24,840 nt of DNA from a virus. A program made the translations under genes and the position numbers. This document shows, piece by piece, positions 4,310 to 21,320 of this stretch (within the stretch, counting starts at the first letter, position 1; each line of letters opens with the position of its first letter). The notes beneath the pieces were generated by a model, which had not been told where the DNA came from, did not search any database, and was given only the letters and a program-made list of their open reading frames with translations. Where the stretch lies: IMG/VR virus record IMGVR_UViG_3300033146_005244, positions 1 through 24,840 of that record; one strand, 5' to 3'.

Positions 4310-4323
4310 TAGTATTATCTTTA
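4310..4323 (-). promoter_or_regulatory. Putative late promoter motif for the 649-aa gene
   Basis: The minus strand reads TAAAGATAATACTA, matching the motif upstream of the tape measure gene. It is followed at once by the GAGGAA ribosome-binding site and ATG 4298, so the leader would be only about 12-15 bases. Confidence 0.45.
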
Positions 4324-6201: not shown

Positions 6202-8019
6202 TTAGAAACTAACGTTTTCTAAAATTTGATTTTTAAGTTCCAATTTACTTTCATTTTTATTAAATTTAAATTTTTCTACATCTTCTTTATCGCCTTTTAA
6301 GGGACCAACTTTTACTCCTGTAAATTTTTCGTCTAACTTTTTAAATATTTCTGTTCTATAAAACTTTATTATGTCTTGTCTTTTTCCAGAAATTGCAGGT
6401 TTTGCTTCTTCTGTTTTAGTTCCTTTAATAGCTGGCTTTCCTTCTATCCATTCTTTAGTACTCTTAAGCTTTGTTACTTTTGCTTCTGCTGATAAGTTGC
6501 TAAAAGCAATTTCATTTTTAAGTTTTTCTTGTTCTATATCTAATTCATTCTTTTTAGCTTTAATTTCATCTCGTTTTAATTTACCTTCTTTTCCCGGATT
6601 TAATTTGCTTTCGGCTGTAAGTTCTTTTTTTAGTAGGGTAACTTTCTTCTTGGCATTTGTTAACCTCTTTTTTCTTAACATAAGAAGTTTCTCTAAACTT
6701 TCTTGCTTTTTTTTGTTTTTCCAAGAAACTCCTGCTAATTTGTATAGTTCTCCAGAAGTTGCTATAGAAGCATGTCCACCTATTCCTTCTTTTACTTGAT
6801 CAAATTTCTTTTTGTTATACTTATTTCCATATTTTTTTTCAACTTCGGTAAAAGCAGCTTTCATAATATCAATAAGATTATATTTACTTTTTTCGTTGTC
6901 TGGCATATCTGGATTTAACGCTATTTGTATCATATTAGCCCAAGATCTCATTGCCCAAGGATAACGATTTCCATTTTTATCAGTTAACATTGAACCAACA
7001 AATCTTCCCGGTTGTCCTGGCCCTGACAATTCAGACCACATTCCTGATCCTTTTACTTTAAATACAGAGTTTGGTCCAGTAGCGTCTGCTATATCTTTTT
7101 CATTTTTTGCTCTCATAGCTTCAATAGAAACTGGGGGTTTACTTCTTCCCTCTCCCCTCATCGCTTTTCTAATAGTTGATTTAGATAATTCTGTTTTTTC
7201 TTTTGGGTCTTTCCCTATTAATTTTTTAATTAGTTTATCATCTCTTTTTTCTTGTGGTTTTTTTAATTCTTTTACTAATTCTATTTCTTTAGAAATAAGA
7301 GTTTTAACCTTATTGGATTTCAGAGCAGTATAAACACCTTTTACACTAGGAATTGCATTTCTAATTATATATTCAATAGCTCCAGTTGTTTTTGCGGAAG
7401 GCTTTCCTGTTGCAGTATCTCCTTTTAGTACAGCTGAAAGTAATGCATTTACAACGTTTGGAAAGTTTTTTTTATTCATTTTTAATTTTGATAGATCTAA
7501 TAAATTATCTATTTTAGCACTATCAACTTTTGAAATTTCTTTGAGGGTATTCGCTCCAGCTATTCCAGAAGTATGAATAGTTGCAATTCTTTCAGTATCA
7601 GATTTATGGCTTACTTCACCTTTTCTTTTAGGATCTCTTTTTGGTCCAGCTCTTACTCCAGATTTTGATTTTCTTGCCTCTTCTCCTGGTTTTGGTTCTT
7701 CTTGTTCATGATGGTCAGATAACCAATCTACAGTTACTCCTGGAGGTAATCGAGAAAAATCAACTACTACAGCCATTTGTTTAGGACTAACATTAAAGAA
7801 AGCTGGTTTCTGATTTCCATATTGAACAGGGAATAATTGTATTCTTTCAGGAGCTACTCCTTGCTTTATTAATTGTCTATATACAAGCATTGCTGAAAAA
7901 ACACCATCCATATCAACATGATGATACAATTTTACAGAAGAAGAACCTGATTTCAATCTTATTCCTGATTCATTAAGTTTCTCTTCTTTAGCATTTTTTA
8001 ATATATCTGAAAAATCCAT
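6202..8019 (-). CDS. DHH-family phosphoesterase fused to long lysine-rich helical region; probable internal head protein
   Basis: Residues 30-110 carry the three N-terminal DHH motifs: H34-x-D36-x-D38-G39 in LYHHVDMDGVFSAML, a buried strand ending in D87 (MAVVVDFS), and D102-H103-H104. A later 'SKVDSAKID' (about 165-175) may be the fourth metal-binding aspartate. DHH proteins are Mn-dependent phosphoesterases (RecJ exonuclease, NrnA nano-RNase, GdpP/DhhP cyclic-dinucleotide phosphodiesterases). Which substrate applies here cannot be told. No DHHA1 domain is evident; the remaining ~430 residues are Lys-rich helices with a coiled coil near 430-520. The N-terminus, MDFSDILKNAKEEKLNE, looks like a T4 prohead propeptide ending L-N-E. 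It is the last gene of a four-gene operon, starting two bases after the previous stop, with GAGGAA as ribosome-binding site. Confidence 0.75.
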   Translation of the reverse strand: MDFSDILKNAKEEKLNESGIRLKSGSSSVKLYHHVDMDGVFSAMLVYRQLIKQGVAPERIQLFPVQYGNQKPAFFNVSPKQMAVVVDFSRLPPGVTVDWLSDHHEQEEPKPGEEARKSKSGVRAGPKRDPKRKGEVSHKSDTERIATIHTSGIAGANTLKEISKVDSAKIDNLLDLSKLKMNKKNFPNVVNALLSAVLKGDTATGKPSAKTTGAIEYIIRNAIPSVKGVYTALKSNKVKTLISKEIELVKELKKPQEKRDDKLIKKLIGKDPKEKTELSKSTIRKAMRGEGRSKPPVSIEAMRAKNEKDIADATGPNSVFKVKGSGMWSELSGPGQPGRFVGSMLTDKNGNRYPWAMRSWANMIQIALNPDMPDNEKSKYNLIDIMKAAFTEVEKKYGNKYNKKKFDQVKEGIGGHASIATSGELYKLAGVSWKNKKKQESLEKLLMLRKKRLTNAKKKVTLLKKELTAESKLNPGKEGKLKRDEIKAKKNELDIEQEKLKNEIAFSNLSAEAKVTKLKSTKEWIEGKPAIKGTKTEEAKPAISGKRQDIIKFYRTEIFKKLDEKFTGVKVGPLKGDKEDVEKFKFNKNESKLELKNQILENVSF

Positions 8020-8021
8020 AT

Positions 8022-8765
8022 TTATTCCTCATCTCCATCAGTCATTGCTTTTGTTTCTTTTTTTGTTTTAGACTTATCTGCTTCTTTAGCAGCAGATGCT
8101 AATTTCTTTACTACTCTAAAAGTTTTTACTGTCATAGCATTTTTTTCATATTTTCCTTCTAATTCAGTAAGTTTAGATAAAGAAAAAACAGAACCAGTTA
8201 CTGACATACCAAGAGTTGCCATTGCCATAACCATACTTGGATTTGTTCGTCTAATTACTTCACCTTGAAGTGCTCTTCCTAACATATTTGTTGAAGGATT
8301 TAATCTTTGATTAATATTTTCAGCTGCTTGATCTAAAGCTCCACTATTATTCATTAAATTTAAAACTCCAAATCCCATTAGTAAAATTGTAATTGCTAAA
8401 ACAATTACTCCAGCAGCTACTAATGCATTTCTAACATCTTGTTTGCTTACTATTTTAAGAAGTTCTGTATATTTTAATTTGATTTTATTATAATCAGATT
8501 TAAGTGAAATTTTCTTTTTTTCGTCTTTTGCATCTTTATATTTTTTTTCTAAAGTCTCTAAAGAAAAAGTAATTTTTTGAATTCTATTTAGAAGATCTTC
8601 TACTTTTTCAAGATTAGCAACATCACCTTTTTTTTGTGCAATCTTTATTTTAGATTCAATTGCTTTTTCTAACCTTCTCATTTTTTTACTATCTTTAAAC
8701 CATTTAATTCCTTCATTTAATTCTTCATATCCAGAATTTTTTTTAATCTCTTCTAGTAGAGTCAT
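8022..8765 (-). CDS. Membrane-segment protein with head-targeting-like N-terminus, 247 aa
   Basis: The N-terminus MTLLEEIKKNSGYEELNE resembles those of the two flanking genes and ends in the same L-N-E. Residues 20-110 are a Lys/Glu-rich coiled coil. Residues of about 113-137 form a convincing transmembrane helix (LVAAGVIVLAITILLMGFGV), and a second hydrophobic stretch lies near 177-197 (MVMAMATLGMSVTGSVFSL). The C-terminus is charged. One reading is an internal virion protein that inserts into the host membrane after ejection. This is inference; no family is recognised. GAGGAG in the end of the upstream gene serves as ribosome-binding site, three bases separate the genes, and the operon order (117 aa, 247 aa, 605 aa) implies joint production. 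Confidence 0.65.
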   Translation of the reverse strand: MTLLEEIKKNSGYEELNEGIKWFKDSKKMRRLEKAIESKIKIAQKKGDVANLEKVEDLLNRIQKITFSLETLEKKYKDAKDEKKKISLKSDYNKIKLKYTELLKIVSKQDVRNALVAAGVIVLAITILLMGFGVLNLMNNSGALDQAAENINQRLNPSTNMLGRALQGEVIRRTNPSMVMAMATLGMSVTGSVFSLSKLTELEGKYEKNAMTVKTFRVVKKLASAAKEADKSKTKKETKAMTDGDEE

Positions 8766-8768
8766 TTT

Positions 8769-9122
8769 TTACTCCTCTTCTTCGCTGTCTTCATCATCAT
8801 TTTTTTCCATTTCTTCTTTAAAAGTTTTATTTAATTCATTTTTAATAATTTCTAATTTTTCCATAGCTACTTTATGAAGTTTATTCATGTCAGTATCTCT
8901 ATTTTCTTCTGCTTTTTCAACAGAGTTCATATTTGGCCTATCGTTATAATAATTATATCTTCTTCCTTCTGAATCAGCTTGAATCCATTTTAATTCTCTT
9001 AAAAGACTAGCAAATGCTCCTATTAATCTTGATTCAGCATTTAATGTTTTTACCTGACTTATTTCGCTTTCATTAAGTTTAACACCTGAATTCTTTTTCA
9101 TTTCTTTTATTATATCTAACAT
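8769..9122 (-). CDS. Small acidic-tailed protein with head-targeting-like N-terminus, 117 aa
   Basis: It begins MLDIIKEMKKNSGVKLNE. The element KKNSG-x(2-3)-LNE is shared with the downstream 247-aa protein, and LNE with the 605-aa protein. The body is helical, with a Tyr/Asn/Arg-rich patch (RRYNYYNDRPNMNSVEKAEE), and the last 15 residues are nearly all Asp/Glu. The highly acidic tail could mimic DNA or neutralise basic partners, but no function is recognised. GGAG precedes the ATG by a few bases. It lies nine bases downstream of the 101-aa gene. Confidence 0.62.
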   Translation of the reverse strand: MLDIIKEMKKNSGVKLNESEISQVKTLNAESRLIGAFASLLRELKWIQADSEGRRYNYYNDRPNMNSVEKAEENRDTDMNKLHKVAMEKLEIIKNELNKTFKEEMEKNDDEDSEEEE

Positions 9123-9131
9123 AATGTTCTC

Positions 9132-9437
9132 CTAAAATACTATTTCTTTATTTTTCATATCTTGATTTTGATCTTCAACTTTAACTCTAATTTGAATTAA
9201 GGGAAATTTTCCTTCTTCTATTTTGTAATACTTACCAGTTTGCCTGATATCAGCTCTTGCTTCTTTATCAATCCAATCTTCAAATCTTGAAAAATCCTTT
9301 ATTGACTTTTCAATAATATACTTCTTATTATCCTGTTGAGATGTGACTATTATAACAAACCCTGTTTTGCTATGACCTTTTGAAAAATCTACTAGTTGTC
9401 CTGTTATTGTTGATTTAATTAATTCATTTAATGTCAT
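9132..9437 (-). CDS. Unrecognised small protein, 101 aa, first gene of the DHH operon
   Basis: The sequence is mixed alpha/beta: a helical MTLNELIKSTITGQLVDFSK start, a beta strand TGFVIIVTS, and a second strand PLIQIRVKVEDQ near the end. The family is unknown. The N-terminus (MTLNELIKS) is related in character to the LNE-containing N-termini of its operon mates, but the match is too early in the protein to be a cleavage site of the same kind. There is no clear ribosome-binding site: the late-type motif TAAAGATAAAGAT abuts the ATG, so the transcript could be leaderless or the true start may lie downstream. Confidence 0.55.
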   Translation of the reverse strand: MTLNELIKSTITGQLVDFSKGHSKTGFVIIVTSQQDNKKYIIEKSIKDFSRFEDWIDKEARADIRQTGKYYKIEEGKFPLIQIRVKVEDQNQDMKNKEIVF

Positions 9438-9450
9438 ATCTTTATCTTTA
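9438..9450 (-). promoter_or_regulatory. Late-type motif abutting the DHH operon start
   Basis: The minus strand reads TAAAGATAAAGAT and is followed at once by ATG 9437. It is similar to the motifs before other virion genes but leaves no room for a leader, which weakens the promoter assignment. Confidence 0.3.
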
Positions 9451-15113: not shown

Positions 15114-17072
15114 ATGGCTAGCTTAGAAAATATAATATTAACAGAATTAGAAACAGAGTCTATAAATGAAGTAATTATAGCTGAAGGGTTTATGCCGTTA
15201 AATCCAATTTTAGCTTATTTAACATTGAAAAGAAAATCTTTAAAAAATTTAAAAAAAGTTTCTAATGCTACTATTGGGAAGGTTGAAAAAGCGACTAAAA
15301 ATATTAAAGGTAAAGCAATTTTAGGAAGAGAAAAATTACGTGCTGAACTTGAATTTGGTGGAAGTAAAAATTTAAATTCTACAACTTATAAATTAACTAA
15401 AGAGCAAACAGAAATATTGTCGCAAATTTATGAAAATTATGGTTCTGAATTAATTTCTGAAATAATGAAATTTAGAAAAGATGTATTAGCTCCTTATCAA
15501 GTAATTAAACGAACAGTTAAAAAAAATAAAATGCTTACTTCTAAAGAAACTTTTGGAATGACAAAAGAACAATTTAAATCAAATCTTGAATCAGGGAGAA
15601 GAAAAATTGAAGCTCGTGGCTCAAGATTTGAAAAAGATGATGACTTAGAAGAAAAAATAGAGAAACAAGATAGAACTATTAAATCATTAGAAGAAGTAAA
15701 GAAAGGAATTAAAACAAATAAAAGAATTCCTTCTACCATTTTAGAAAGAATATTAAAAGAATATGATTTAGGAAAAGAAAATTTTGATTCTTATTCAATG
15801 AATGATTTAAAAAAAGCATATTTTGATATCACTAAAAATTTAGAGAAAATTGGTGAAATTGATGCTGATGATGAAGAAGATCCAATAAAAAAATCAGATG
15901 AAATATCAAAATTAGTTAAACGAAATATTGATTTAAGAAAAGGCAATGTGGCAAAAATAGCAGCACAAAAAAGGTTAGAACTTAAGAGAGCTGAAACTGA
16001 TGATATTGATGAATCATATTTATATGAGTATAAAATTGATTTAACTAAAAATAAAAATTTTAGATTAAGTAACGGTGGTTTTAATTCTGCTCTTGGATTA
16101 TATTTTTTAAGAAGAAAAATAATGGATCAACTAAAACCAGAAAAAAGAGATAGTATTTATAGACAAACATATATTAAAATAGTAAATGAATTAATTGATA
16201 ACGCTAAAGAAAGAAAATCAACTTATTATACTAAAATTTCCAAAAATAAAAGTAATGTAGAGTTTAATGAAAAAGAAAGAAAAATATGGGAATTAAGACC
16301 TTCTGTCGGAGCACCTACTGGGAATGTAAAAGATTATATTCAAAAACTTAAAGAAGATGATTTTTTTAATCCTAAATACTTTAAAAAATCAGATAATCTA
16401 ATTAAAGCAGAAAAAGCTATTGAAGCTGGAATTAAAAGATTTGAAAGAAACCTTAAAAAGAAAATTTCAAAAGAAGATTATGATAGGCTTAAAAAATATA
16501 GATTAATAAATAATCTTATTACAGTTGGAGAATTAAAATCTCCTGATAAACTTTTTAAAACACCGGATGAACTTAAAAACTCTATTGATAAAAAGAAAGA
16601 ATCTAAATTTTTGTCTGATTCTGATTTCAAAAGAAAAATAAGAGAAATTGCAACTGCTGAATATGATTCTATTTCTGATTTAAATAAAGCTAAAGAAGAA
16701 GCTAAAGATTTATTTGACACTAAAAGAGAACAAGGTGATGATGATATTGCTGATGAAATGGAAGGAATATTCACACAAATTAAAAATAGAAAGTCTCTTA
16801 AATCTAAAAAAATTATTGGAAATGATATAGCAATGTCAGATGATGATTTAATAGACGCTGGAATGGTTGAAAAACTTGTTAAAAGTATGTTGAGTAAAAA
16901 CTATAAAGGTAATGATGATCAACTTAAAAAAGATAATATAAGATTAAAGAAAATGGTTAAAAAATATAAAGAAAGTGATGGTGCTGACGCTGAAAGAAAT
17001 TTAGATGAAATTGGTTTCTTGTTTAAACAATTAAAAGCTAAAACACAAACACTTGAATATAAAGATGAGTAA
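15114..17072 (+). CDS. Large lysine-rich helical protein with head-targeting-like N-terminus, 652 aa
   Basis: No family is recognised. The protein is almost wholly alpha-helical, with about 20% Lys and 12% Glu. The N-terminus, MASLENIILTELETESINE, ends in I-N-E (17-19), and a second site I-A-E|G follows at 22-25 (VIIAEGF). These fit the T4 gp21 prohead-protease rule (L/I-x-E). The same style of N-terminus occurs in the DHH operon. A structured middle (FRLSNGGFNSALGLYFLRRK, about 318-337) is flanked by coiled coils. The late-type motif overlapping the uvsW stop sets it apart from its replication neighbours, so I infer an internal head protein. AAAGGAA supports the ATG. It is followed after 10 bases by the 255-aa gene. 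Confidence 0.6.
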   Translation: MASLENIILTELETESINEVIIAEGFMPLNPILAYLTLKRKSLKNLKKVSNATIGKVEKATKNIKGKAILGREKLRAELEFGGSKNLNSTTYKLTKEQTEILSQIYENYGSELISEIMKFRKDVLAPYQVIKRTVKKNKMLTSKETFGMTKEQFKSNLESGRRKIEARGSRFEKDDDLEEKIEKQDRTIKSLEEVKKGIKTNKRIPSTILERILKEYDLGKENFDSYSMNDLKKAYFDITKNLEKIGEIDADDEEDPIKKSDEISKLVKRNIDLRKGNVAKIAAQKRLELKRAETDDIDESYLYEYKIDLTKNKNFRLSNGGFNSALGLYFLRRKIMDQLKPEKRDSIYRQTYIKIVNELIDNAKERKSTYYTKISKNKSNVEFNEKERKIWELRPSVGAPTGNVKDYIQKLKEDDFFNPKYFKKSDNLIKAEKAIEAGIKRFERNLKKKISKEDYDRLKKYRLINNLITVGELKSPDKLFKTPDELKNSIDKKKESKFLSDSDFKRKIREIATAEYDSISDLNKAKEEAKDLFDTKREQGDDDIADEMEGIFTQIKNRKSLKSKKIIGNDIAMSDDDLIDAGMVEKLVKSMLSKNYKGNDDQLKKDNIRLKKMVKKYKESDGADAERNLDEIGFLFKQLKAKTQTLEYKDE

Positions 17073-18467: not shown

Positions 18468-20126
18468 ATGAGTTTTAAATTAATTTCAAAGAAAGAAGTA
18501 ATAGAACCTTTAATAAAAAATAACATTCTTTTAAATGCAAAATCAAATAGTAAACTTTTTTTTAAATGTGTTAAATGTGGAGAAGAAACAAATAAAACTA
18601 TTCAATCATTATCTATGAGAGGATTAAATTATAAAGAAATTGACATTACTGATGAAAGTATTTTTCTTTGTAGAAAGTGTGCTAAAAAATATTTTAACTT
18701 AAAAAAATATGGTGTAGAAAATATTTCTCAATTAGAATCAGTTAAAGAAGCAAAAAGACAAACTTGTCTAAAAAATTTTGGAGTTGAGTACCCTCAGCAA
18801 AATAAAAAAATTCAAAAAAAAACAAAAAGTAATAATTTAAAAAAATATAATGTAACTAATCCAGCAAAATTAGAGGAAAATAAGAAAAAACAGGTTCAAA
18901 CAAAAATTGAGAAATATGGAAGGGTTAATTTACAAAAAGAAAGTCCCTTTTGCAGAAAAGAAGTAAGAGAAAAGTCAAAGCAAACAATGATAAAAAGATA
19001 TGGTTTTGAAAATCCTTTTGCTAATGAAGAAATAAAAAAGAAAATATCACAAAATCATTTTATGACATATTTACCTGTAATTAAAAAAAGATTGCAACAG
19101 CAACAAGTAGAATTATTGGATGATTATAAGGGTTTAAGAATTAAAGATAAAGATATTTATTATAATTTTAAGTGTTTAATTTGTAATACAGAGTTTAAAA
19201 GTAGTATACATTCAAGAGTTCCAAGATGTCCTACCTGTTTTCCTAAATTTATTTCAAGAGCAGAAAAAGAAATAGAAAATTTTATTAAAACTATTTATTC
19301 AGGGAAAATTATTGAAAACGATAGAACTGTTTTAGAGGGTAAAGAATTAGATATTTACTTACCTAATAAAAAAATAGCAATTGAATTTGATGGTTTGTAT
19401 TGGCATAGTGAAAATCAAGGGAAGAACAAAAACTATCACCTTAATAAAACTAAAGTTTGTAATGAAAAAGGAATTTATTTAATACATATTTTTGAAGATG
19501 AATGGTCAGACAAACAAGAAATAGTTAAATCAAGATTAAGTCATTTAATTGGTTTTAATAAATATGAAAGAATTTATGCTAGAAAATGTATTATAAAAGA
19601 AATATCTTCTAAACAAAAAAATATTTTTTTAAACGAACATCATATTCAAGGAGCTGATAAAAGTAAATATAAGTTAGGATTATTTTATAATGATGAATTA
19701 GTTTCTCTAATGACATTTGGAAAAGCAAGAATTGCTTTAGGCAGTAAAAGCGAAGATGATGTTTATGAATTAATTAGATTTGCTTCAAAAAAAAATACTG
19801 TAGTTATCGGTGGAGCAAGTAAACTTTTAAAATATTTTGAAAGGAATATAAAGTGGAAAAAAATCTTTTCATTTTCTGATAAAAGATGGAGTCAGGGAGC
19901 TGTTTATAAGCAACTCGGTTTTAATTTTGAACATACATCAAATCCTAATTATTGGTATCTTGAAAACAATAAACGAGTTCATAGGTATAATTTTAGAAAA
20001 AATGTATTAAATGAAAAATTAGAAAAATTCAATAAAAATTTAACAGAGTGGGAAAATATGAAATTGAATGGTTATAATAGAATATGGGATTGTGGAAATG
20101 ATAAATGGGTTAAAGAAAATATTTAA
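18468..20126 (+). CDS. Hef-type homing endonuclease with Vsr-like (EDxHD) nuclease domain
   Basis: The protein has 552 aa in recognisable modules: a C-x2-C zinc ribbon (C34/C37 with C68/C71), five short repeats of the form K-(Y/F)-G-V-x-N at about 79, 102, 125, 149 and 177, a second zinc ribbon (C236/C239, C254/C257), and a Vsr-like nuclease core. The core has E293-L-D295-IYLP, IAIEFDGLYWHSE (303-315) with E306, D308, H313, and IYLIHIFEDEW. A conserved C-terminal domain contains HHIQGADKSKYKLGLFYN. This is the layout of free-standing phage homing endonucleases of the Hef kind. It would cut a relative's DNA near this locus so that the gene spreads. It starts 10 bases after the hsp20 terminator, with AAAGGA as ribosome-binding site and no promoter of its own. 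Confidence 0.85.
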   Translation: MSFKLISKKEVIEPLIKNNILLNAKSNSKLFFKCVKCGEETNKTIQSLSMRGLNYKEIDITDESIFLCRKCAKKYFNLKKYGVENISQLESVKEAKRQTCLKNFGVEYPQQNKKIQKKTKSNNLKKYNVTNPAKLEENKKKQVQTKIEKYGRVNLQKESPFCRKEVREKSKQTMIKRYGFENPFANEEIKKKISQNHFMTYLPVIKKRLQQQQVELLDDYKGLRIKDKDIYYNFKCLICNTEFKSSIHSRVPRCPTCFPKFISRAEKEIENFIKTIYSGKIIENDRTVLEGKELDIYLPNKKIAIEFDGLYWHSENQGKNKNYHLNKTKVCNEKGIYLIHIFEDEWSDKQEIVKSRLSHLIGFNKYERIYARKCIIKEISSKQKNIFLNEHHIQGADKSKYKLGLFYNDELVSLMTFGKARIALGSKSEDDVYELIRFASKKNTVVIGGASKLLKYFERNIKWKKIFSFSDKRWSQGAVYKQLGFNFEHTSNPNYWYLENNKRVHRYNFRKNVLNEKLEKFNKNLTEWENMKLNGYNRIWDCGNDKWVKENI

Positions 20127-20777: not shown

Positions 20778-21320
20778 ATGGATAAAAAAGAATACAATAA
20801 AAAATATAATATATTAAATAAAGAAGAAATTAAAGAATATAAAAAAAGATGGTATCAGAAAAATAAAGAAAGAATTAAACAAAAATCAAAAGAATATTAT
20901 AAGAATAATAAAAAAGAGATTCTTAAAAAACAAAAACTTTATCTTCTTGAAAAATATGGAAATGATATGAATTCAAAGATTAAAAAAAATGTATATAATT
21001 ATATAAAAGAAGGATTAAAAGTTGGATATTGGAATAAAAAAATAGAGACTTTATTAGGTTATTCAGCAAATGAGTTATCACAATATCTTCATATTAAAGC
21101 TAATGAACATATTCATCATATTATTCCTGTAAGAGTTTATAATTTTTATAATAAAGAAGATATAAAAAAATGTTGGAGTTTAGAAAATTTAACTTCGTTG
21201 TCTAATTTAAAAAGGAATAATGATATAGATTGGGATTTAATAGAGGAAAAAAAAATAGAACATCTTTTACCTGATACATTATTAATTGATGATTTAATTG
21301 GTAGACATCATGAAGTTTAA
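20778..21320 (+). CDS. HNH homing endonuclease
   Basis: The protein has 180 aa. A basic, Lys/Tyr-rich helical region (residues 1-60, e.g. KKEYNKKYNI) precedes an HNH nuclease domain with HIHHIIPV (111-118), the spacing SLENL (134-138) and N147. These are the conserved His and Asn residues that bind metal and cut DNA. Free-standing HNH genes of this size are common mobile elements in T4-like phages. GAGGG four bases upstream supports the ATG. Two nuclease genes of different families flank the tail tube gene, so this is either a pair of invasions or an exchange hotspot. The last 11 bases overlap the next gene. Confidence 0.85.
   Translation: MDKKEYNKKYNILNKEEIKEYKKRWYQKNKERIKQKSKEYYKNNKKEILKKQKLYLLEKYGNDMNSKIKKNVYNYIKEGLKVGYWNKKIETLLGYSANELSQYLHIKANEHIHHIIPVRVYNFYNKEDIKKCWSLENLTSLSNLKRNNDIDWDLIEEKKIEHLLPDTLLIDDLIGRHHEV

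Follow-up and report, generated by a model that had tools for sequence, protein, structure and literature searches.

The DHH gene unit and its surroundings

We analyzed a virus record of 24,840 bases (IMG/VR IMGVR_UViG_3300033146_005244), referred to below as the window, and in particular a protein of 605 amino acids (aa) that it encodes, a predicted phosphodiesterase of the DHH/DHHA1 type preceded by a putative head-targeting leader. The gene content of the window is that of a T4-like myovirus fragment without head genes. Among the T4-like gene labels, the gp26-like hub alone is confirmed by a profile match (T4_baseplate, E 9e-15); the others (tape-measure-like, SSB-, UvsX-, UvsW-, GroES-, Hsp20-, tail-tube- and gp47/gp46-like) were assigned by eye from the sequence. 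The DHH gene belongs to a unit of four minus-strand genes (101, 117, 247 and 605 aa), which are separated by gaps of 9, 3 and 2 bp and surrounded by tail genes (hub, tape-measure-like and tube-like). The features of the unit are as follows; pLDDT stands for the predicted local distance difference test.

6202..8019, minus strand: predicted DHH/DHHA1 phosphodiesterase, 605 aa, with N-terminal leader (motifs, profiles, predicted models)
7969..8019, minus strand: leader MDFSDILKNAKEEKLNE, residues 1-17, predicted cut after LNE, mature N-terminus SGIR ([LIV]xE conservation; low pLDDT)
7903..7920, minus strand: motif I, H34-V-D-M-D-G39 (scored residues identical in 33/33)
7759..7761, minus strand: motif II, D87 (identical in 33/33)
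7708..7716, minus strand: motif III, D102-H103-H104 (identical in 33/33)
7522..7524, minus strand: motif IV, D166 of VDSA (invariant in a four-sequence alignment; DSA in G021, G022 and G023)
6772..6780, minus strand: DHHA1-type GGH, residues 414-416 (invariant in 39 members)
8022..8765, minus strand: 247-aa protein containing a hydrophobic segment (G021 and G023 have relatives of 270 and 259 aa, respectively)
8712-8765, minus strand: 18-residue leader MTLLEEIKKNSGYEELNE of the 247-aa protein, ending in LNE
8769..9122, minus strand: 117-aa protein with acidic tail (N-terminus strongly conserved in L003 and L171)
9069-9122, minus strand: 18-residue leader MLDIIKEMKKNSGVKLNE of the 117-aa protein, ending in LNE
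9132..9437, minus strand: 101-aa protein that opens the unit, no clear leader
9437..9450, minus strand: TAAAGATA in two overlapping copies, a late-promoter-like element heading the unit (enrichment; placement in relatives)

A preliminary description of this locus had placed the enzyme among late-type genes, next to a membrane-segment protein and an acidic-tailed protein. This agrees with the surrounding tail genes and the late-type control element described below, as well as with the properties of the neighbors: a strongly hydrophobic stretch of the 247-aa protein lies at about residues 110-140 (Kyte-Doolittle mean of 2.7 for the best 19 residues), and the acidic tail is that of the 117-aa protein.

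Close relatives of the window were collected by a tail-tube scan, which yielded G021 (201 kb), G022 (62 kb) and G023 (32 kb). The DHH gene occupies the same locus in five of six other contigs (G021, G022, G023, L171 and L003) and was not found in the sixth, which is only 18.9 kb long. No counterpart of the 247-aa protein turned up in the L003 contig.

Motifs, distribution and predicted fold of the DHH protein

The DHH motifs H34-x-D-x-DG, D87 and D102-H103-H104 recognized in the preliminary description are all located where it had placed them, and we add to them motif IV (D166, within VDSA) and the DHHA1 signature GGH at residues 414-416. None of the eight scored motif residues varies among the 33 non-redundant relatives, and GGH is invariant in 39 of 39 aligned members. 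The Pfam DHH profile matches the 605-aa protein at E=0.007, short of its gathering cut-off, and the 'DHH phosphoesterase' family PHROG 4771 matches at 8.9e-6. We regard it as nearly certain that the protein has a DHH/DHHA1 fold with intact motifs. The interpretation of the mature protein as a divergent DHH/DHHA1 phosphodiesterase with predicted activity is supported by these motifs and by the models described below. We also considered whether the protein might serve as a head-core or scaffold component that uses the DHH fold without catalysis, as the window group carries a long Lys-rich coiled-coil extension; this reading was rejected as highly improbable, since the scored DHH residues and GGH are invariant even in very divergent members.

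Database searches place the family largely in uncultured giant phages. A tblastn search with the DHH protein gave no more than two matches, both to records of uncultured giant phages (635 and 642 kb), and a collection of 50,697 phage records gave no match outside such records. Scanning IMG/VR with the window sequence alone recovered one relative; an alignment query was needed for the rest and yielded 189, of which 80 were kept. Some giant phages have a winged-helix-like insert between the DHH and DHHA1 parts (L020:10010-12019 and L004:5923-7914), that of L020 matching HTH_45 at E 2.7e-5, under its cut-off. Among about 85,000 genomes, the only clearly cellular relative (n=1) is found in a Myxococcales assembly (L208:4719-6491). 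It is 31% identical to the compact member L042 and has no LxE; it is apparently exported, since it carries a secretion-type signal peptide. The other genome match, L207, adjoins terminase- and sheath-like genes and has the short leader MKFELFE/SGL (here and below, a slash marks the known or predicted cleavage site).

AlphaFold2 models were built for the 605-aa window protein (mean pLDDT 66) and for the 474-aa L042 (mean pLDDT 81, predicted template modeling score 0.79). The structure comparison suggested in the preliminary description returned PggH, the phosphatase of 3'-phosphoadenosine 5'-phosphate (PAP), RecJ and NrN. In Foldseek, the matches of the window model were 6mtz and, mainly, RecJ (E 1e-4 to 1e-3), and those of the L042 model were PggH, DhhP and RecJ. 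In VIA-align the L042 model ranked PggH first (Z 14.3, 252 residues, 4.8 A), followed by PAP phosphatase (13.2), archaeal PF0399 (12.0) and a set at about 10 that includes RecJ and NrN. With the 605-aa model, coiled-coil matches dominated the VIA search, and the fold conclusions therefore lean mainly on L042. Fold matches to RecJ cover the DHH-DHHA1 core; the OB-fold that RecJ has in addition to this core was not identified in the DHH protein. A sequence-profile search of the Protein Data Bank with the compact-family profile gave chance matches only and recovered none of the fold-match structures, and the closest predicted viral structures, at 53% and 39% identity, are uncharacterised proteins. 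Identity with the c-di-AMP phosphodiesterase GdpP, in which PAS and degenerate GGDEF domains precede DHH, was rejected: there is no PAS or GGDEF match, and the DHH part begins near residue 28.

These results bear on the possibility that a packaged enzyme acts as a nuclease on nucleic acid at entry, either RecJ-like on single-stranded DNA or nanoRNase-like on short RNAs. Such an activity would suit the predominance of RecJ among the Foldseek matches of the window model, as well as the basic character of the window protein (isoelectric point 9.8) and its Lys-rich C-terminal coiled coil. However, with the better model RecJ scores under PggH and PAP phosphatase, and the C-terminal extension is absent from the compact members of the 39-member alignment. 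We consider this alternative rather unlikely.

The leader, its predicted cleavage site and late-type control

The T4 prohead protease cleaves after [LI]xE. The prohead-like propeptide proposed for the window protein ends in LNE at residue 17, and the site proved to be family-wide: [LIV]xE, with E at the predicted P1 position, directly precedes the enzyme in 32 of 33 non-redundant relatives. The usual N-terminus consists of about 7-20 variable residues, [LIV]-x-E, a small residue, G-[ILMF]-[RKQ] and then the enzyme. The residues upstream of the site vary among members and its spacing shifts: in six members [LIV]NE lies one position farther upstream of the enzyme. In both models, pLDDT stays below 50 over residues 1-18. 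Within the window's group the DHH proteins have LNE, INE or LTE, with a shorter LLE in G023. Cleavage after E is also known from proteases related to that of T4 (PMC5694885), and packaging of IPIII needs no more than its first ten residues (PMC9026906).

When the DHH leader was scored against the N-termini of other proteins, it was often similar to those of the phage's own group. Against the proteins of its own phage, the LR745206 leader MISKYNQFINE scores +8.2; it reaches +6.7 and +7.8 in the allied G003 and G007 and at most 2.1 in the other group. For the leader MILKENMLSSILSE the score is +4.7 in its own phage and lies between -0.7 and 0.8 in G002, G003 and LR745206. Family members whose records include head genes have matches to gp23 (PF07068) and the S77 protease (PF03420).

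A second leader, xEEIKKNSGxxLNE, is shared by unrelated proteins of the window's group (117, 247/270, 487 and 218 aa), including both neighbors of the DHH gene; all of its nine matches in about 622,000 residues of called proteins are N-terminal. In addition, the relative G021 encodes an S77 prohead protease (E 4.6e-21) and a gp23 that reads '...LLNEDELNE/APMTQSAVGTSVIPKVLFPVIRR', with LNE/A at the position of T4 '...SFLTE/AEIGGD'. By position, we infer LNE/A as the cleavage site of this gp23, so LNE appears to be the site in the major capsid protein of the window's group. Both leader-bearing neighbors are probably co-packaged with the enzyme.

Genes were called with a simple script, and some start sites are therefore bound to be wrong. 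As a control, the same caller and patterns applied to T4 recovered IPII and IPIII (MKTYQEFIAE/A). N-terminal LNE is over-represented in T4 as well (12 versus about 4 expected); counts of LNE are thus weak proof on their own and were set aside as sole evidence. The clade-A leader pattern gave 15 matches in T4 versus 8.3 expected. In the giant phages, its matches against expectation were 58/12.8 in LR745206 (W01, first 286 kb), 63/12.4 in G003 (L132-L144), 85/21 in G002 (L152-L169) and 34/5.5 in G007 (L189-L196), and leaders such as MKYLKTYNE/S or MIKKYxxFxNE open dozens of proteins per giant phage. This suggests that these phages have very large sets of head-targeted proteins.

The T4 bias also speaks for an ordinary late cytoplasmic phosphodiesterase that is not packaged, its N-terminal LNE being due to chance or belonging to the enzyme itself, and the G[IL] that follows the site in nearly all members may be structural. 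Yet E is kept despite the shifting spacing and variable upstream residues, the site is absent from the bacterial homolog, unrelated neighbors share leaders, and the first 18 residues are unresolved in both models; this explanation is improbable.

The candidate control element of the unit, TAAAGATA, occurs 18 times in the window versus 6.0 expected, a count reached in none of 100 shuffles. It heads the DHH unit in the window, and in G021, G022 and G023 it lies upstream of the unit or of an adjoining leader gene. In five fragments of the group it was found within 70 bases upstream of 11 of 31 genes with an LNE leader and of 28 of 363 others (Fisher p=4e-5), although these gene counts are not independent because the genomes are related. 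We propose it as a candidate late promoter of the window's phage group; in the window only 7-13 bases separate it from the unit's first ATG, which is close for a promoter of that gene. Copies at window positions 4316, 5573, 5605, 9437-9450 and 15080, as well as in G021-G023, are upstream of structural-type and of leader-bearing genes.

Potential cleavage sites are found inside some DHH proteins as well. Near their C-termini, those of L003:10001-11755 and L171:4068-5969 read into a copy of the second leader (SLIDEIRKNSGMLNE, SLINNIRKNSGMLNE), as though joined to another protein with a leader; beyond it, L171 has several dozen residues. In 14 loci, some of them redundant, the DHH protein is fused to an extracytoplasmic function (ECF) sigma factor (L010, L012, L013, L025, L028, L029, L033, L034, L037, L038, L039, L043, L056 and L063). 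The L010 fusion matches Sigma70_r2 (E 3e-14) and r4_2 (E 4e-13). The linkers of the fusions contain [LI]xE, which in L025, L028 and L029 was spotted by eye just beyond the scanned linker. The fusion L037:8596-9153 starts with MGGIRN inside the motif; it lacks the leader and retains the internal linker site. A stand-alone sigma factor in G004 (L118:8511-9050, equal to G004 84511-85050) starts with the leader MEKLIKKILKEELLKE. The simplest reading of these arrangements is that the fusions are joined leader-bearing genes whose parts would be separated by the prohead protease, and it is possible that leader-bearing ECF sigma factors are head-delivered.

Two further observations concern other genes of the window. 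A 652-aa protein of unassigned function (15114-17072), 70% identical to its L003 counterpart, has an N-terminal IIAE/GF that fits the cleavage rule and a copy of TAAAGATA 34 bases upstream; it is possibly another head protein. Homing-endonuclease-like or zinc-finger-repeat open reading frames are found between conserved genes (window 18468-20126 and 20778-21320; L003:3904-4803 and 7073-7996; L006:11213-12676), and the places of some differ between the window and L003.

Possible role of the enzyme and comparison with known systems

The packaging hint of the preliminary description is strengthened by these data. Head targeting of the DHH protein is highly probable because of the family-wide [LIV]xE, the group-like leaders, the prohead protease and LNE capsid site of a relative, the late-type element and the one cellular homolog found, which lacks such a leader. 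We propose that a capsid-targeting sequence at the N-terminus, like those of T4 internal proteins, directs the late gene product into the phage head and that the phage's S77 prohead protease would cut this product after LNE. The enzyme would then enter the host together with the DNA; such injection is probable because the head-packing leader is kept across many uncultured giant phages. Its likeliest substrate would be a small nucleotide (pNpN, PAP, SAM-AMP or a similar dinucleotide, where SAM is S-adenosylmethionine), cleared in the first minutes before phage genes act, and the outcome could be either silencing of a defence signal or recycling of nanoRNA or PAP. Several substrates are possible because the nearest folds act on pGpG, PAP, SAM-AMP, nanoRNA and single-stranded DNA. 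As a whole, a head-packed, injected DHH phosphodiesterase acting on a small nucleotide is the explanation that we favor, with moderate confidence.

Several points weigh against it. No isolate carries the DHH gene, and L037 has no N-terminal site. In three of the ten phages tested, the DHH leader has little or no similarity to the phage's own N-termini (none in G005, weak in G009 and G011), and the LNE bias of T4 described above belongs here as well. The DHH loop has low confidence in both AlphaFold2 models, so the metal-site geometry is not readable from them, and the choice of substrate is a guess from fold neighbors.

A packaged enzyme could alternatively be dedicated to counter-defence, destroying at entry the messenger (a cyclic oligonucleotide or SAM-AMP) of Thoeris, type III CRISPR or the cyclic oligonucleotide-based antiphage signaling system (CBASS). 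Head delivery would give it the right timing. A fold neighbor, NrN (Z about 10), is a SAM-AMP-specific DHH enzyme that ignores cA2-6 and pApA (PMC10600005); DHH enzymes of jumbo phages have been suggested to blunt nucleotide signaling (Iyer et al. 2021, PMC7824862); and phiKZ injects proteins including Tad1 (PMC13282480). However, NrN ranks below PggH and PAP phosphatase. The gene also keeps its locus in every close relative found to have it, and it occurs in highly diverse phages; typical anti-defence genes are patchy, so this distribution speaks against a narrow anti-CBASS gene of patchy occurrence. Dedicated counter-defence is a possibility that we hold to be on the unlikely side, and conservation across close relatives and phages of very different size suggests that a general early role is at least as likely as niche anti-defence. 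Thus, head targeting and the enzyme identity put forward in the preliminary description are backed by our analysis, and its narrower counter-defence proposal is still speculative. A broader scenario, which we regard as doubtful, is that a widespread lineage of uncultured T4-like giant phages injects a pre-made nucleotide phosphodiesterase. In some phages the enzyme and an ECF sigma factor would be made as one polyprotein and split by the prohead protease, so that host alarm nucleotides would be erased and host RNA polymerase redirected ahead of all phage gene expression.

The favored explanation would make a conserved enzyme part of the head cargo across uncultured giant phages. The underlying sequence rule, a leader and LxE matched to the phage's own capsid site, could allow injected proteomes to be predicted with nothing more than a genome sequence. 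Should the enzyme remove nucleotide signals upon entry, it would represent a catalytic, injected equivalent of Tad1 and similar sponges. A literature search covering few subscription journals found no capsid-targeted DHH enzyme and no report of its leader conservation across giant phages; nor did it find leader-bearing ECF sigma factors or a direct precedent for a sigma factor as virion cargo.

Leader-bearing injected proteins are known from T4, namely IPI-III and Alt (PMC9026906, PMC12373910). The DHH protein resembles them in its short N-terminal leader ending in [LI]xE, in the accompanying S77 protease (gp21 in T4) and gp23, and in sharing the leader with unrelated proteins; like Alt, it would be an injected enzyme. 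It differs in activity, being a predicted DHH/DHHA1 enzyme rather than a GmrSD inhibitor or an ADP-ribosyltransferase, and in conservation, as the T4 internal proteins are poorly conserved, whereas the DHH protein is conserved across diverse giant phages.

The best fold matches, the pGpG-specific PggH of Vibrio cholerae (7d62) and PAP phosphatase (8a8k), share with it the DHH and DHHA1 parts, but identity is about 12%, and the DHH protein additionally has a capsid leader, further helices and, in members of the window group, a tail rich in Lys. Both models matched RecJ and archaeal RecJ-like nucleases in Foldseek, with Z below that of PggH for the better model. NrN, the type III CRISPR SAM-AMP phosphodiesterase (9lqa-9lqc), is alike in its DHH fold, but is a host CRISPR-associated protein, whereas the DHH protein is phage-encoded. 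The jumbo-phage DHH proteins of Iyer et al. 2021 (e.g. ALN97901.1) are also phage-encoded, with a proposed counter-signal role; the passages describing them do not mention packaging. Finally, Tad1 of phiKZ is likewise an injected head protein acting on immune nucleotides, but it sequesters its ligand, whereas the DHH protein would be an enzyme.

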